Source of the DNA: Bacteroidaceae bacterium
Lineage (GTDB): Bacteria; Bacteroidota; Bacteroidia; Bacteroidales; Bacteroidaceae
Direction of reading: 5' to 3'
DNA: 64,000 bases
NCBI GenBank assembly: GCA_017522785.1
Contig: JAFWYF010000032.1
Coordinates: 1 to 64,000, forward strand
Below the pieces are notes generated by a model, which searched no databases, was not told the DNA's origin, and worked only from the letters and a program-made list of their open reading frames with translations. The first letter of the stretch is position 1. Each line of letters opens with the position of its first letter. The position numbers were made by a program, and so were the translations under genes. This document shows positions 9,418 through 18,274 of the stretch, one piece after another.

Positions 9418-9458
9418 CCGAAAATTCCGTTAATTTTGACATAAAACTATATAAGACT

Positions 9459-10955
9459 ATGAGCGATAGATTATTTATTTTTGATACAACGCTTCGTGAC
9501 GGTGAGCAGGTTCCCGGTTGTCAGTTGAACACAGTTGAGAAAATTCAGGTGGCAAAACAGTTGGAACTATTGGGTGTAGACTGCATCGAAGCGGGTTTCC
9601 CTATATCGAGTCCCGGAGATTTTAATTCAGTAATTGAGATTTCAAAGGCTGTTACATGGCCCACTATCTGTGCGCTTACACGTGCAGTAGAAAAAGATAT
9701 AGATGTAGCAGCCGATGCTCTTAAATTTGCAAAGCATAAACGTATACACACCGGTGTTGGCACTTCCGATTATCACATTAACTACAAGTTCCGTTCTACA
9801 CGTGAAAAAATCATTGAGACAGCAGTATCAGCTGTAAAATATGCTAAACGTTATGTCGAGGATGTAGAATTCTATGCCGAGGATGCAGGACGTACCGACA
9901 ATGAATATTTGGCACGTGTGGTTGAGGCTGTAATTAAAGCCGGTGCGACAGTGGTAAACATCCCCGACACCACAGGCTATTGCTTGCCTAGTGAATATGG
10001 AGAAAAAATAAAATATCTCATGGAACATGTGGACGGAATAGATAAGGCTATCATTTCGACACACTGCCATAACGACCTTGGTATGGCAACAGCCAATACT
10101 CTTTCGGGAGTTATAAATGGTGCTCGTCAGGTTGAGGTTACCATCAACGGTATTGGTGAGAGAGCAGGAAATACCTCACTCGAGGAGATTGTGATGATTA
10201 CAAAGTGCCATCCTACATTGAACATAGACACTAATATCAATACTCAAAAAATCTATCCTACAAGCCGCATGATTTCAAGTCTGATGAATATGCCGGTACA
10301 GCCCAATAAGGCTATTGTAGGAAGAAACGCATTTGCACACTCATCGGGTATCCATCAGGACGGTGTGCTGAAAGATGTCAGCACATACGAAATTATGAAC
10401 CCAAAAGATGTGGGTATAGATGATAACTCAATCGTTCTTACAGCTCGTAGCGGACGTGCTGCGCTAAAATATCGTTTGTCGGTTCTTGGTGTAACTCTCG
10501 AAGATGATAAATTGAACGAGGTATATCAAGATTTCTTGCGTCTTGCCGATAAAAAGAAAGAGATACACGACGACGATATCCTTGTACTTGCCGGTGCCGA
10601 GCGTAGCAGCAACAAAGGCATTAAACTCGATTATCTGCAAGTTACCACCGGACTTAATATTCGTTCAGTGGCAAGTATCGGTTTGCGCATAGCAGGAGAA
10701 CTCTTCGAGAGCGCGGCTACTGGTAACGGTCCAGTAGATGCGGCTATAAATGCACTTAAAAATATTATCCGTCGCGAGATGGTGTTACGCGAGTTTACAA
10801 TACAGGCTATCAGTAAAGGTAGCGACGACATGGGTAAAGTACACATGCAGGTAGAGCATAACAACCATGTATATTATGGCTTTGGTGCAAATACTGACAT
10901 AGTCAGTGCTTCGGTTGAGGCATATATCGACTGTATAAATAAATTCCAAGATTAA
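9459..10955 (+). CDS. leuA: 2-isopropylmalate synthase
   Basis: Condenses acetyl-CoA with 2-oxoisovalerate, the first committed step of leucine synthesis. The TIM-barrel domain opens with [13 protein letters not shown] (metal-binding Asp and catalytic Arg) and contains [14 protein letters not shown] (metal-binding His pair) and NGIGERAGN; the C-terminal LeuA regulatory domain (about 380-498) is the leucine feedback site. Length 498. The start is set at ATG 9459; upstream in-phase sequence is not LeuA-like. First gene of leuA-leuC-leuD-leuB, with gaps of 19, 11 and 61 nt. Confidence 0.95.
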
Positions 10956-10974
10956 TATTTTAGCGAACAGACAC

Positions 10975-12369
10975 ATGAACACCCTTTTCGATAAAATATG
11001 GGATGCGCATATTGTGCAAAAAGTCGAGGATGGCCCAACACAACTTTATATAGAAAGACTCTATTGCCACGAAGTTACATCGCCTCAGGCTTTTGATGAA
11101 CTTCGCAGTAGAGGTATTGGTTGTTTGCGCCCCGAAAGAATATACTGCATGCCCGACCATAACATCCCTACATTGGAACAGGAAAAACCAATTAAGGATG
11201 CAGTTTCTCGTAAACAGGTAGACACTCTTATGAGCAACGCCAAACAGTTTGGTCTGAGTATGTTTGGGATAAAGCATCCAAAGAATGGTATCATACATGT
11301 CGTAGGTCCTGAACTTGGACTAACTCTGCCGGGTATGACTATCGTTTGTGGCGACTCTCACACATCGACACATGGTGCAATGGGAGCAGTTGCATTCGGC
11401 ATTGGTACAAGTGAGGTTGGCATGGTTATGGCATCGCAATGCATCTTGCAACAAAAGCCAAAGGCTATGCGCATAAATGTCGAAGGTACACTAGGCAAAG
11501 GAGTTACATCAAAGGATGTAGCACTATATATTATGTCGCAAATGACAACAAGTGGTGCAACAGGCTACTTTGTGGAGTATGCAGGTAGTGTAGTGCGCGC
11601 AATGAGCATGGAGAGCCGTCTCACTCTTTGCAACTTGTCTATCGAGATGGGGGCGCGTGGTGGCATGGTGGCTCCCGACGAGGTTACATATGAATATATA
11701 AAAGGACGTGAATATGCTCCACAAGGAGAGGCTTGGGACAAGGCTTTAGCCTATTGGAAAACTCTTTATAGTGGCGACGATGCAATTTTTGATAAAGAGT
11801 ATACATTCCATGCCAAAGATATTGAACCACGTATAACTTATGGTACCAATCCCGGTATGGGAATAGGTATCACAGAGCAGGTCCCTGCAATAGACAGCAT
11901 CGACGAGGCGGGGAAAGTATCCTATTTGAAATCTCTTGAATACATGGGCTTCGAGGCCGGTAAGCAGCTTTTAGGACAGCCCATAGATTATGTCTTTATT
12001 GGTTCGTGTACCAATGGTCGAATAGAGGATTTCCGAGCATTTGCCCAAATTGTAAAAGGTAGAAAAAAGGCAGATACTGTAACAGCGTGGATAGTTCCCG
12101 GTTCGTGGAGCGTACAACGTCAAATAGTGGCAGAAGGAATAGATAAAATCCTCGAAGAGGCCGGTTTTGAATTACGACAACCCGGTTGTTCGGCATGTTT
12201 GGCAATGAACGACGATAAAGTCCCTGCCGGAAAATATTGTGTCTCTACAAGTAATAGAAACTTCGAAGGTCGTCAAGGTCCCGGAGCGCGCACAATATTG
12301 GCAAGCCCCTACGTTGCAGCAGCTGCGGCTATAACCGGTTGCATAACAGACCCTCGTGAGTTATTGTAA
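10975..12369 (+). CDS. leuC: 3-isopropylmalate dehydratase, large subunit
   Basis: Aconitase-family subunit that carries the [4Fe-4S] cluster for isomerising 2- to 3-isopropylmalate. Cluster cysteines are in GSCTNGR and in the CSACLAMN pair; [12 protein letters not shown] and the early DHN (MPDHNIPT) are substrate and cluster contacts. Length 464 is that of the bacterial LeuC type. It forms the holoenzyme with LeuD, encoded 11 nt downstream. Confidence 0.95.
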
Positions 12370-12380
12370 TAAAACAGCAG

Positions 12381-12977
12381 ATGATGAAAAAAGAAAAATT
12401 TGATATAATAACAGATAGTTGTATTCCTCTGCCTTTGGAAAATATCGATACCGACCAAATCGTTCCGGCACGTTTTCTAAAGGCAACAACACGTGAAGGG
12501 TTTGGCGATAACCTTTTCCGCGATTGGCGTTTCGACAAAGAGGGAAATAAAATCGAAAGTTTTGTAATGAATAATCCTGCATATAGTGGTCGAATATTGG
12601 TTGCAGGTAAAAACTTTGGTTGTGGTTCAAGTCGTGAACATGCTGCATGGGCCATTGCCGACTATGGCTTTCGTGTGGTTGTATCCAGTTTCTTTGCCGA
12701 CATACACAAAAACAACGAGCTCAACAATTTTGTGCTACCGGTAGTGGTGAGTGAACAATTTCTCAAAGAGTTATTCGATAGCATAGAAAAGAATCCAAAA
12801 ACAGAAGTAACTGTTAATTTACCAGAGCAGAGCATTAAAAATAATGCTACCGGTAACAAGGAGTACTTCGAAATAAATGCATACAAGAAACACTGTTTGA
12901 TGAATGGTCTCGATGACATAGATTTCTTGTTAAGCAACAAAGACAAAATTGAGCAGTGGGAGAAACGATTCAACTAA
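12381..12977 (+). CDS. leuD: 3-isopropylmalate dehydratase, small subunit
   Basis: Swivel-domain partner of LeuC. It has [13 protein letters not shown] near the N-terminus and the [13 protein letters not shown] loop that recognises the substrate. Length 198. Two consecutive ATG codons (12381 and 12384) are possible starts. A small hairpin (CTCCT/AGGAG, 13003-13015) lies in the gap before leuB and could be a processing or stability element. Confidence 0.95.
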
Positions 12978-13038
12978 TGGAATCACAAATTCAATAAAAA
13001 GGCTCCTGTTAGGAGTGCAGTAAACTTATTAATTTATC

Positions 13039-14112
13039 ATGAATTTTAATATAGCAGTTTTGCCGGGTGATGGAATAGGTCCCGAGATTATAGCAGAGGC
13101 ATTAGAGGTAACAAAGGCTGTGTGCAACAAATTTGGACACACAATGACATACGAGACAGGTTTGGTGGGTGCATGTGCCATAGATGCAACAGGCAACCCC
13201 TATCCCGACGCAACACACGAACTATGCATGAAAAGCGGTGCAGTGTTGTTTGGCGCTGTGGGCGACCTGCGTTTCGATAATAATCCTTCGGCAAAAGTGC
13301 GTCCCGAACAGGGGTTGCTTGCAATGCGCAAGAAACTGGGGTTATATGCCAATTTACGTCCGGTAACCACCTTCGAGGCTCTTATTCATAAATCGCCGTT
13401 GCGCACCGACATCGTTCAGGGTGCCGACTTCATGTGTATACGCGAATTAACCGGTGGCTTGTACTTTGGACGTCCGCAAGGTCGTAGCGAAGATGGCAAT
13501 GTCGCTTATGATACCTGCGTATATTCACGCGAAGAGATAGTACGCATCGTTAAATTGGCGTATGAATATGCTATGAAACGTCGAAAGAAGGTTACTGTGA
13601 TAGACAAAGCAAATGTGCTCGCAACTTCGCGTTTGTGGCGCGAGGTGGCAAAGGAGATTTCTAAAGATTATCCCGAGGTAGAAACCGAATTCATGTTTGT
13701 GGATAATGCGGCAATGCGTCTTATACAGTGGCCTACGTCGTTCGACGTAATGGTAACAGAAAATATGTTTGGCGATATTCTCACCGATGAGGGCTCTGTG
13801 ATTACAGGCTCATTAGGTTTGTTGCCTTCTGCATCAATAGGTGTACATACTTCGTTGTTTGAGCCGATACATGGCTCTTGGCCTCAGGCTGCGGGGCAGA
13901 ACATAGCCAATCCGCTTGCTACAATCTTGTCGGCAGCAATGATGTTCGAGTATGCGTTTGGTCTAATGGATGAGGGTAAGCTGATTCGTGAAGCTGTTAA
14001 TGCATCGTTGGAGGCAAACGTCAGAACTGCCGATATTCAGGTCGATGGTGTTGCTCCATATGGCACAAAAGAGGTTGGTGCATGGATTGTTAATTACATA
14101 AATGCTAAATAG
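13039..14112 (+). CDS. leuB: 3-isopropylmalate dehydrogenase
   Basis: NAD-dependent oxidative decarboxylation of 3-isopropylmalate to 2-oxoisocaproate. Motifs in order: [41 protein letters not shown], the active-site [23 protein letters not shown] and the NAD-binding EPIHGSWP. Length 357, standard for the family. Last leucine gene of the operon; the cell-wall amidase begins 18 nt later. Confidence 0.95.
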
Positions 14113-15388: not shown

Positions 15389-16090
15389 ATGAAAAGATTG
15401 TTATATATATTGCTCTTTGTTCTTCCATTTGCGACATTGGTGGCTCAAGAACGTAAACTGCAAAATAAGCCTTATATCGACTATCGCAGGTTGCATTATG
15501 GTTTTTTTGTTGGTTTACACATGCAAGATTTGGAAATTGCAAACAATGGCTTTATTACAGAAAATGGAGAGCAATGGTATGCTGATGTAAGTGCATACAG
15601 TCCCGGTTTCAGTGTGGGTGTTCTTGCCGATTTGCGCATAAACGGCCACCTCTCTTTACGTGCCATTCCATCGTTGCATTTTGGAGATAAGAAAGTGGTG
15701 TTTCGCGAGCGAAACAGCAAAGCAACCGAGCGCCAACAAATAAAATCTACTTACCTCTCTTTGCCATTAGAAGCAAAAATTGCAGCAGAGCGTTTCAATA
15801 ATTATCGTCCTTATGTTTTAACCGGTATAAATCCAATGATAGATTTGACTGTGAAAAAGCAAAAACCACTATTGGTTAAAAAGTTCGATTGTATGCTCGA
15901 AGTTGGTTTGGGTTGCGATTTCTATCTTCCATTCTTCAAACTAAATCCCGAACTGAAATTCTGTTTCAGTATTCTCGATGTTCTGGAGAAGAATCGTAAA
16001 GATTTGCTCGATGACAATTATCTGAAATTTACCCAGTCTGTTGATAAAGCTGTTGCCAAAATGATAGTTTTATCGTTCTATTTCGAATAA
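15389..16090 (+). CDS. porT: PorT-like outer-membrane beta-barrel protein
   Basis: A 233-residue protein with a signal peptide (to about residue 19, LVAQ) and alternating beta strands predicted to form an eight-stranded barrel. Overall plan and sequence (YIDYRRLHYGFFVGLHMQDL, PSLHFGDKK) resemble PorT, an outer-membrane component linked to the type IX secretion system in Porphyromonas. PorT-like proteins also occur in Bacteroidales that lack a complete system, so secretion cannot be inferred from this gene alone. No other por or gld gene is in the window. Confidence 0.7.
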   Translation: MKRLLYILLFVLPFATLVAQERKLQNKPYIDYRRLHYGFFVGLHMQDLEIANNGFITENGEQWYADVSAYSPGFSVGVLADLRINGHLSLRAIPSLHFGDKKVVFRERNSKATERQQIKSTYLSLPLEAKIAAERFNNYRPYVLTGINPMIDLTVKKQKPLLVKKFDCMLEVGLGCDFYLPFFKLNPELKFCFSILDVLEKNRKDLLDDNYLKFTQSVDKAVAKMIVLSFYFE

Positions 16091-16113: not shown

Positions 16114-16144
16114 TTTGCGTAATTTGAATATGTACCTATCTTTG
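16114..16144 (+). promoter_or_regulatory. Promoter of the trp leader
   Basis: TTTG at 16114-16117, exactly 19 nt, then TATCTTTG at 16137-16144: a perfect Bacteroidetes promoter. Transcription should start near 16151, 14 nt before the leader-peptide ATG. Confidence 0.75.
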
Positions 16145-16164
16145 CAAAAGCAAATTGTATTTTT

Positions 16165-16218
16165 ATGAATAACCTATTGAACAACTTATGGTGGCGATGC
16201 TCAGAATTATATTCGTGA
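16165..16218 (+). CDS. trp leader peptide with tandem Trp codons
   Basis: A 17-residue peptide, MNNLLNNLWWRCSELYS, with two adjacent TGG codons at 16189-16194. It follows a perfect promoter and precedes an intrinsic terminator and a tryptophan synthase gene, so its function as an attenuation sensor is strongly implied: ribosomes stall at the Trp codons when charged tRNA-Trp is scarce. The stop is TGA 16216-16218. Confidence 0.8.
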   Translation: MNNLLNNLWWRCSELYS

Positions 16219-16285
16219 GCTGTTATCTTGTGTTCAGTTTATAGATATATACAAGGATTGTCTCACGAGGGGCAATCCTTTTTTT
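16178..16285 (+). promoter_or_regulatory. Transcription attenuator of trpB
   Basis: Three mutually exclusive pairings are visible. TGAACA (16178-16183, just before the Trp codons) can pair with TGTTCA (16231-16236). The overlapping TCTTGT (16226-16231) can pair with ACAAGG (16251-16256), acting as antiterminator. The terminator is AAGGATTG (16253-16260) with CAATCCTT (16273-16280) followed by T to 16285. A further hairpin, GCTCA (16199-16203) with TGAGC (16216-16220), surrounds the leader stop. Stalling at TGG would block the first pairing, favour the antiterminator and allow readthrough. Confidence 0.75.
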
Positions 16286-16313
16286 GTATAATATGTAGAT
16301 AAATATAAATGTC

Positions 16314-17666
16314 ATGAAGCAGAAACGTTATTTCTTGTCCGAGAGTGAATTGCCAAAGCAGTGGTATAACTTGCAGGCCGACATGCCAAAAAAACCACAA
16401 CCCATGTTAAGTGCAAAGACAAAAGAGCCTATAACAGTCGATGAACTTGCAAAATTAATATCACGTGAGGCTGCTTCACAGGAACTTAATATGACAGATC
16501 GCTGGATAGATATTCCCGAACCGGTAATGGAAATGTATCGTTACTACCGTTCCACTCCATTGGTGCGTGCTTATGGATTGGAAGACGCTTTGGGAACACC
16601 TGCACACATATATTTTAAAAACGAGAGTGTTAGTCCTGTTGGTTCTCACAAACTAAACTCGGCTCTACCACAAGCCTACTATTGCAAGCAAGAGGGTGCA
16701 ACAAACATAACAACAGAAACCGGTGCCGGACAGTGGGGTACAGCCTTGTCCTATGCTTCAAAGGTTTTTGGTTTGGAGTGTGCTGTTTATCAGGTCAAGA
16801 TTAGTTATAATCAGAAACCCTATCGTCGTAGTGTTATGCAGGCTTTTGGTGCTCAGGTAACTCCTTCACCCTCTATGTCTACACGTGCAGGAAAAGATAT
16901 CCTTACACTTTATCCAAATCATCAGGGTTCGCTGGGAACAGCAATCTCCGAGGCTGTAGAGCTGGCTTTGACTACTCCCAATTGTAAATATGCGCTTGGT
17001 TCTGTTATGGGGCATGTGAGCCTGCATCAAACAATAATAGGACTAGAGGCTGAACTGCAAATGCAAAAAGCCGGGGAGTATCCCGATGTTGTCATTGGTT
17101 GTTTTGGAGGTGGCTCGAACTTTTCAGGAATAGCCTTTCCGTTTATGCGTCATAATATTCTCGATGGAAAGAAAACACGCTTTGTAGCCGCCGAACCGGA
17201 ATCTTGTCCCAAACTTACACGCGGAAAATTCTGCTATGACTATGGCGATGAAAGTGGCTATACTCCGCTTATGCCAATGTTCTCTTTAGGACATAAATTC
17301 TGCCCGCCCAATATTCATGCCGGTGGTTTACGCTATCATGGAGCCGGTGTTATAATATCACAACTGCTAAAGGATGGTCTCATGGAGGCAGTCGATATGA
17401 GCCAGCTTAAAACATTCGAGGCCGGGTTGTTGTTTGCTAAAACCGAAGGTATAATTCCGGCTCCGGAATCGTGTCACGCAATAGCGGCTGCAATAGATGA
17501 GGCTAACCGTTGTAAGGAGAATGGCGAATCCAAAGTTATACTGTTCAACTTGTCGGGGCATGGATTGATGGACATGACAGCCTACGACCAATATCTATCG
17601 GGTAGTTTGACAAATTACTCAATTAGCGATGAAGATATAAACAAGAATATCGAACAGATAAAATAA
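16314..17666 (+). CDS. trpB: Tryptophan synthase beta chain, TrpB2 type
   Basis: PLP enzyme joining indole and serine to make tryptophan. At 450 residues, with a long N-terminal extension and internal insertions, it belongs to the TrpB2 group rather than the ~390-residue TrpB1. The PLP lysine is K113 in SPVGSHKLNSALPQ; ETGAGQWG and the phosphate loop GCFGGGSNFSG are present. No trpA or other trp gene is adjacent, so it may salvage indole or serve as a second TrpB; that is inference. Expression is controlled by the leader attenuator just upstream. Confidence 0.9.
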   Translation: MKQKRYFLSESELPKQWYNLQADMPKKPQPMLSAKTKEPITVDELAKLISREAASQELNMTDRWIDIPEPVMEMYRYYRSTPLVRAYGLEDALGTPAHIYFKNESVSPVGSHKLNSALPQAYYCKQEGATNITTETGAGQWGTALSYASKVFGLECAVYQVKISYNQKPYRRSVMQAFGAQVTPSPSMSTRAGKDILTLYPNHQGSLGTAISEAVELALTTPNCKYALGSVMGHVSLHQTIIGLEAELQMQKAGEYPDVVIGCFGGGSNFSGIAFPFMRHNILDGKKTRFVAAEPESCPKLTRGKFCYDYGDESGYTPLMPMFSLGHKFCPPNIHAGGLRYHGAGVIISQLLKDGLMEAVDMSQLKTFEAGLLFAKTEGIIPAPESCHAIAAAIDEANRCKENGESKVILFNLSGHGLMDMTAYDQYLSGSLTNYSISDEDINKNIEQIK

Positions 17667-17671
17667 AATAT

Positions 17672-18274
17672 ATGGATTATAGAAAAATAATGTACGTTCA
17701 TGGGTTTGCCTCTTCGGGTAGTTCGGGCACAGTCATGGCTTTGCGTCGCTATCTGCCACATTGGCGTGTAGTGGCTCCTGACTTGCCTATTAACCCTTTT
17801 GAGGCGATGGAACTTTTGCATAAGACAATAGAGAACGAACAGCCCGACTTAATCATAGGAACCTCAATGGGTGGCATGTTTGTTCAACAACTTTGGGGGC
17901 ATCGCCGCATTGTGGTAAATCCATCGTTTGAAATGTCGCGTTCACTCCTTTTTGGTAAAATGGGCCGAAACAAATATATGTCGAAGCGCAAAGATGGTGC
18001 AACGGAATTTCGTGTAGATAAGAATGTTGTTGAACAATTCAAACAGATGGAAAAGACGCAATTCGATGGCATAAATGATAATGAAAAGCAGCTGGTTATA
18101 GGACTGTTTGGGGATAAAGACCCTGTAGTTCATTATCAACCGTTGATGGCAGAACTCTATGGCGAGGAACGTTGTCGTTGGTTTGCCGGTGAGCATCGTT
18201 TGAATGACGAGGTGGTGAAAAATGTGTTGCTTCCATTGATAGACGAAATAATGGGTGGTGAATCGTTTCTATAA
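17672..18274 (+). CDS. YqiA/YcfP-type alpha/beta-fold hydrolase
   Basis: A 200-residue esterase-like protein without a signal peptide. It shows the oxyanion region YVHGFASSGSSGT, nucleophile elbow GTSMGG with S65, and a C-terminal His in AGEHRLND. Substrate unknown; relatives are small cytoplasmic carboxylesterases. It starts 5 nt after trpB with no terminator between, so it should share the tryptophan-controlled transcript. Confidence 0.75.
   Translation: MDYRKIMYVHGFASSGSSGTVMALRRYLPHWRVVAPDLPINPFEAMELLHKTIENEQPDLIIGTSMGGMFVQQLWGHRRIVVNPSFEMSRSLLFGKMGRNKYMSKRKDGATEFRVDKNVVEQFKQMEKTQFDGINDNEKQLVIGLFGDKDPVVHYQPLMAELYGEERCRWFAGEHRLNDEVVKNVLLPLIDEIMGGESFL

Follow-up and report, generated by a model that had tools for sequence, protein, structure and literature searches.

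We identified a ribosome-mediated transcription attenuator in front of a lone trpB2 gene in the draft genome (2.1 Mb, 98.6% complete) of a Bacteroidaceae bacterium, and it is highly probable that this attenuator controls the gene and that the encoded enzyme makes Trp from external indole. The attenuator is real, conserved and mechanistically classic, and its target is unusual but sensible. The gene occupies positions 16314..17666 of the 64,000-nucleotide stretch analysed here (the window) and encodes a TrpB-like PLP enzyme of 450 aa (TIGR01415 / NF009057); it and all features described below at this site lie on the forward strand. Upstream stands a PorT/SprT gene (15389..16090), which is conserved beside leader-bearing trpB2 in the genus. 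A YqiA-like alpha/beta hydrolase gene (17672..18274; a weak NF008291 match of 44 bits against a cut-off of 252) follows, is likewise conserved shortly downstream of trpB2 in the genus, and may be co-transcribed with it. A leuA-leuC-leuD-leuB operon (leuA identified by test, leuC, leuD and leuB by eye) is located just upstream, at 9420-14112 of the window; a Leu-rich leader was sought before this neighbouring leuA and none was recognisable.

The promoter (16114..16144) consists of a -33 element TTTG at 16114-16117, a 19-nt spacer and the -7 element TATCTTTG at 16137-16144. The original prediction had called it perfect, and TTTG-N19-TATCTTTG indeed fits the sigma-ABfr consensus of Bacteroidota, TTTG / TAnnTTTG (PMC7366714). 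The pattern matches five times in the 64 kb, both strands counted, and in relatives a TAnnTT(T/C)G box is also found upstream of the leader. Downstream of the promoter, the leader peptide ORF at 16165..16218 starts with ATG at 16165, encodes the 17-residue peptide MNNLLNNLWWRCSELYS with adjacent TGG codons at 16189-16194, and ends with TGA at 16216-16218, as had been proposed. The Trp codons lie in the 5' arm of a 1:2 hairpin (16190..16227; 16190-16207 with 16211-16227), which is present in the minimum-energy fold and has a core in which GCUCA at 16199-16203 pairs with UGAGC at 16216-16220; the previously suggested pairing of 16178-16183 with 16231-16236 appears in the same fold as the outer part of this hairpin. 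The 5' strand of the antiterminator, UUCGUGAG (16212..16219), overlaps the leader stop codon and is an 8-bp complement to the 3' strand CUCACGAG (16262..16269), which lies within the terminator, in its loop and the upper part of its 5' arm. A second suggested pairing, 16226-16231 with 16251-16256, fell near the inner part of the antiterminator but missed this conserved, covarying core. The intrinsic terminator (16253..16285), also foreseen by the original prediction, has a 12-pair stem at 16253-16280 with the loop ACGA and a T-run to 16285, a folding energy of about -16 kcal/mol, and an end 28 nt upstream of the trpB2 start.

RNA folding reproduced the alternative states expected of such a leader. 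The 141 nt from 16150-16290 fold with z = -4.6 relative to dinucleotide shuffles. Without a ribosome, the 1:2 hairpin and the terminator hairpin form, and with a ribosome placed at the stop codon, the terminator forms. When the ribosome was stalled at the Trp codons and the 3' arm of the terminator was still unmade, the two antiterminator strands paired at -16.1 kcal/mol. Once the whole RNA is present, the terminator state has the lower energy (-26.8 kcal/mol, against -17.2 kcal/mol for the antiterminator state), and the antiterminator must therefore win through the order in which the strands are transcribed, as it does in the classic model. The site thus carries the sequence features of the ribosome-mediated Trp attenuator class: a Trp-codon ORF, a terminator and, from covariation and folding, a mutually exclusive antiterminator.

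The enzyme behind this leader belongs clearly to TrpB2, scoring 588 bits against TIGR01415 (cut-off 519) and 139 bits against the trpB1 model TIGR00263 (cut-off 392). TIGR01415 is a hypothetical-equivalog model, so homology does not fix the function of TrpB2. In searches that covered trpA, trpB1, trpC, trpD and trpE, the genome contained none of these genes and no second TrpB, and thus TrpA and the upstream pathway genes covered are missing from the genome that holds TrpB2, as expected of an indole-salvage synthase. Within the genus, none of the 37 genomes searched for trpA had that gene, and none of 44 had trpC. In a draft genome the absence of a single gene is not absolute, but gaps would hardly account for the lack of five pathway genes, one of which is missing throughout the genus. 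With trpA, trpB1, trpC, trpD and trpE absent, no Trp-forming enzyme other than TrpB2 is recognisable in the genome. The original prediction had left open a Trp-responsive or an indole-salvage enzyme; the salvage reading has gained from these absences, and with the high indole affinity described for TrpB2 enzymes (PMC11917138) and a role in indole salvage in Thermococcus, as cited in PMC11085991, TrpB2 most likely serves salvage with external indole as its substrate.

To follow the leader across genomes, we used a covariance model built from 23 leaders, that of this site included. The site itself scored 88 bits, and other matches in its own genome reached at most 28 bits. Exactly one strong match (47-102 bits) was found in each of 21 of the 44 genus genomes, 14 of these 21 being in the training set of the model, and all other matches scored at most 35 bits; genus matches of 20-35 bits were not counted as leaders, many being partial or antisense to the hairpin region. 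The strong leader precedes trpB2 in 15 of the 21 genomes, nearly always with PorT upstream, and trpB1 in the other six (G002, G012, G021, G025, G029 and G065). No trp genes follow trpB1 in G012, G025 and G029, the three of these six whose contigs were read, and trpA was not found in any of the five searched. The four with a readable trpB2 upstream region (G002, G021, G025 and G029) have trpB2 at another locus, without a leader. In the tree, these four leader-less trpB2 genes group as a single clade within the leader-bearing ones, so the leader on trpB1 reflects one evolutionary event rather than four. Three loci (L102, L103 and L104, in G012, G025 and G029) show an RF01692-type leader on a stand-alone trpB1 in trpA-free genomes. 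Beside the trpB1 of G025, divergent neighbours resemble by eye an indolepyruvate oxidoreductase pair, which could link indole-acids to Trp. At a separate locus (L097, G042:C131), two tandem WWW leader ORFs, MNTNRLNNYWWWQFTYSFYREEGKLS and MNNSNLHIWWWHNSGIKP, lie before trpE, at about 1478-1611 and in the stretch from there to trpE, an arrangement that suggests a double attenuator.

The strongest competing explanation accepts the attenuator and assigns TrpB2 another task, making or using a different amino acid needed at Trp shortage, for example by beta-replacement of serine or phosphoserine with another nucleophile. The open function of TIGR01415 leaves room for it, about half of the genus genomes are without TrpB2 and must import Trp anyway, and families possessing trpA likewise have Trp-codon leaders before trpB2. 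Nevertheless, regulation through Trp codons suggests that Trp is what the enzyme makes, the published descriptions of TrpB2 (PMC11917138 and PMC11085991) speak of high indole affinity and indole salvage, and a sister lineage carries the leader on a stand-alone trpB1 in a genome without trpA. We therefore regard another amino acid as unlikely, and Trp formation from indole as the preferred reading.

The leader was further examined in relatives, for which 80 TrpB2 homologues and further ones from whole genomes were compared. Leaders with Trp runs stand ahead of trpB2 in 13 of 17 distinct same-genus genes compared, and WW or WWW leaders are found about 130-300 nt before trpB2 both among the closest relatives and in several further clades of Bacteroidales. 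Four more distant trpB2 leaders are Trp-rich with patterns such as WRW, WCW and WRWRW; no Trp leader was found before trpB2 in the sampled Bacteroides and named Phocaeicola genes. On supported branches of a tree of 45 TrpB2 proteins, the leader has been gained or lost at least five times. Among 23 aligned leaders, 11 of the 15 consensus pairs show at least one double compensatory change each, including most pairs of the terminator stem, while in the 1:2 hairpin the CUCA:UGAG pairing is conserved, three sequences having double changes from CG to UA. The original prediction had staked its case on conserved Trp codons and stems in relatives, and both are conserved, with compensatory changes.

The antiterminator also covaries. 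In 40 leaders (L004, which has a terminator, is left out of this set, and the terminators of relatives were located by folding), the best helices formed from each leader's own sequence had a summed score of 722, against 608 +/- 17 for permuted partners, and none of 20000 permutations was as high in this test, which ignores relatedness. Distant leaders form the same antiterminator pairing with other sequences, GAGCGC:GUGCUC in L017, UUAAACAAUC:GAUUGUUUAA in L131 and GUGAAA:UUUCAC in L095, and a further independent solution is UGAGCAC:GUGCUCA in L020. These data support three mutually exclusive helices, the 1:2 hairpin, the antiterminator and the terminator. At one PorT-trpB2 locus (L117, in G017) the leader has kept WW and shows a late stop, a different terminator and loss of the UCGUGAG element, and is probably a decaying or rebuilt attenuator.

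Leader peptides affect translation or stability in other systems, and the leader described here might likewise act mainly on access to the trpB2 start or on mRNA stability or processing rather than on termination. We consider this very improbable, as the terminator that ends so close before trpB2 is strong and conserved, has a T-run and shows double compensatory changes. The window holds a single case of a short ATG ORF that contains TGGTGG and has a strong terminator no more than 110 nt downstream, and 40 random 64-kb sequences generated by a second-order model of the window yielded none. A terminator after porT is expected and short ORFs are common, but the idea of a chance two-Trp ORF ahead of an unrelated terminator (the porT end or a constitutive one) is refuted by the comparative data and has practically no likelihood left, given these random sequences, the conserved WWW runs and covarying antiterminator of relatives, and a promoter that precedes the leader.

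In E. coli trpL, the ribosome stalls at tandem Trp codons, and the 1:2, 2:3 and 3:4 helices are mutually exclusive. The leader of trpB2 shares tandem-Trp stalling, as predicted from its anatomy, and mutually exclusive helices with this proteobacterial attenuator, whose target is trpEDCBA rather than a lone trpB2. The original prediction held attenuation to be best known from proteobacteria; the lone trpB2 target is indeed unusual, but the mechanism is already known in Bacteroidota, where RF01692 (Bacteroid-trp) is the Bacteroidete tryptophan peptide leader RNA (Weinberg et al. 2010, PMC2864571) and the trp operon of Flavobacterium psychrophilum is preceded by a conserved Bacteroid-trp element whose structure resembles that of its E. 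coli counterpart (PMC6414381). The unusual part is thus the target gene only. RF01692 is the best Rfam match of the 301-bp stretch, at 32.8 bits (E = 0.037; below the gathering score of 49), and the alignment is full-length, covering model positions 1-131 with UGGUGG in register; no Rfam family reached its gathering score anywhere in the window. In a survey of 61 genomes, the RF01692 model detects leaders upstream of trpE and of trpB, and it picks up trpB2 leaders at 32-40 bits, below the gathering score. The two share, in the same phylum, a Trp-codon leader peptide, a hairpin holding the Trp codons and a downstream terminator, whereas RF01692 targets genes of the trp operon. The trpB2 leaders are part of the Bacteroid-trp class, scored below threshold by the Rfam model. 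A second RF01692 match in the same genome (C5:101749, 31.7 bits) had no WW leader and was judged to be chance, and GibS and other sub-threshold Rfam matches at the site were judged to be chance or a shared terminator.

Retention of a tryptophan synthase part under Trp-responsive control, with the rest of the pathway lost, is also seen in trpRBA of Chlamydia trachomatis. There, according to the abstract of PMC7755916, control is by the TrpR repressor with YtgR-dependent attenuation, and trpA has been retained alongside trpB, whereas the site described here has leader-peptide control and TrpB2 alone. Bifidobacterium is likewise a gut bacterium turning external indole into Trp, but by a TrpC-TrpB fusion, and the passages of PMC11085991 consulted do not describe an attenuator of a lone trpB2. 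Our literature search, which covered open-access papers, turned up no account of trpB2 being under Trp attenuation.

The genus also contains candidate indole producers. Of 37 genus genomes, 10 encode a tryptophanase of the P. gingivalis type (NF053783) or a homologue with an equal score; one copy is a fragment, and the NF053783 assignment was checked in three proteins from two genomes. None of these 10 genomes has TrpB2 (Fisher p = 1.3e-4, uncorrected for phylogeny). A divergent tryptophanase/tyrosine phenol-lyase-like protein, whose best-scoring solved relatives are tyrosine phenol-lyases, is present in 16 of 19 TrpB2-bearing and in none of 18 TrpB2-less genus genomes; one example is G000:C10:217696-219039 (L141). 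On a broader view, which we rate a little short of an even chance, this gut genus, having lost Trp biosynthesis, has retained the attenuator on, or transferred it to, the one enzyme that makes Trp from community indole, so that the attenuator goes with whichever enzyme does the salvage (trpB2, or a stand-alone trpB1 where there is one), and the genus is split into non-overlapping indole consumers with TrpB2 and producers with the P. gingivalis-type tryptophanase. This consumer/producer split fails if the tryptophanase-like protein of the TrpB2 genomes is a tryptophanase.

We propose the following mechanism. When Trp-tRNA is plentiful, the ribosome would reach the leader stop at 16216-16218 and cover UUCGUGAG, the terminator at 16253-16285 would form, and transcription would stop. 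When Trp-tRNA is scarce, the ribosome would stall at the two Trp codons and break the 1:2 hairpin; the freed UUCGUGAG would pair with CUCACGAG while the terminator is still incomplete, letting transcription continue into trpB2. Without translation of the leader, the 1:2 hairpin and the terminator would both form and transcription would be off. Expressed through this Trp-dependent readthrough, which we infer from leader anatomy and covariation, TrpB2 is predicted to make Trp from indole, presumably supplied by the gut community, and serine or phosphoserine, without the remaining Trp pathway.

These results place the poorly understood TrpB2 family in a functional setting, as its expression is apparently tied to the charging of Trp-tRNA in an organism without the known route to indole. 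Indole cross-feeding among gut bacteria would thereby become a regulated, testable trait, with predictions as to the species that consume indole and those that produce it, a compound that affects both host and community. The results also extend the Bacteroid-trp class to a target below the threshold of the Rfam model.
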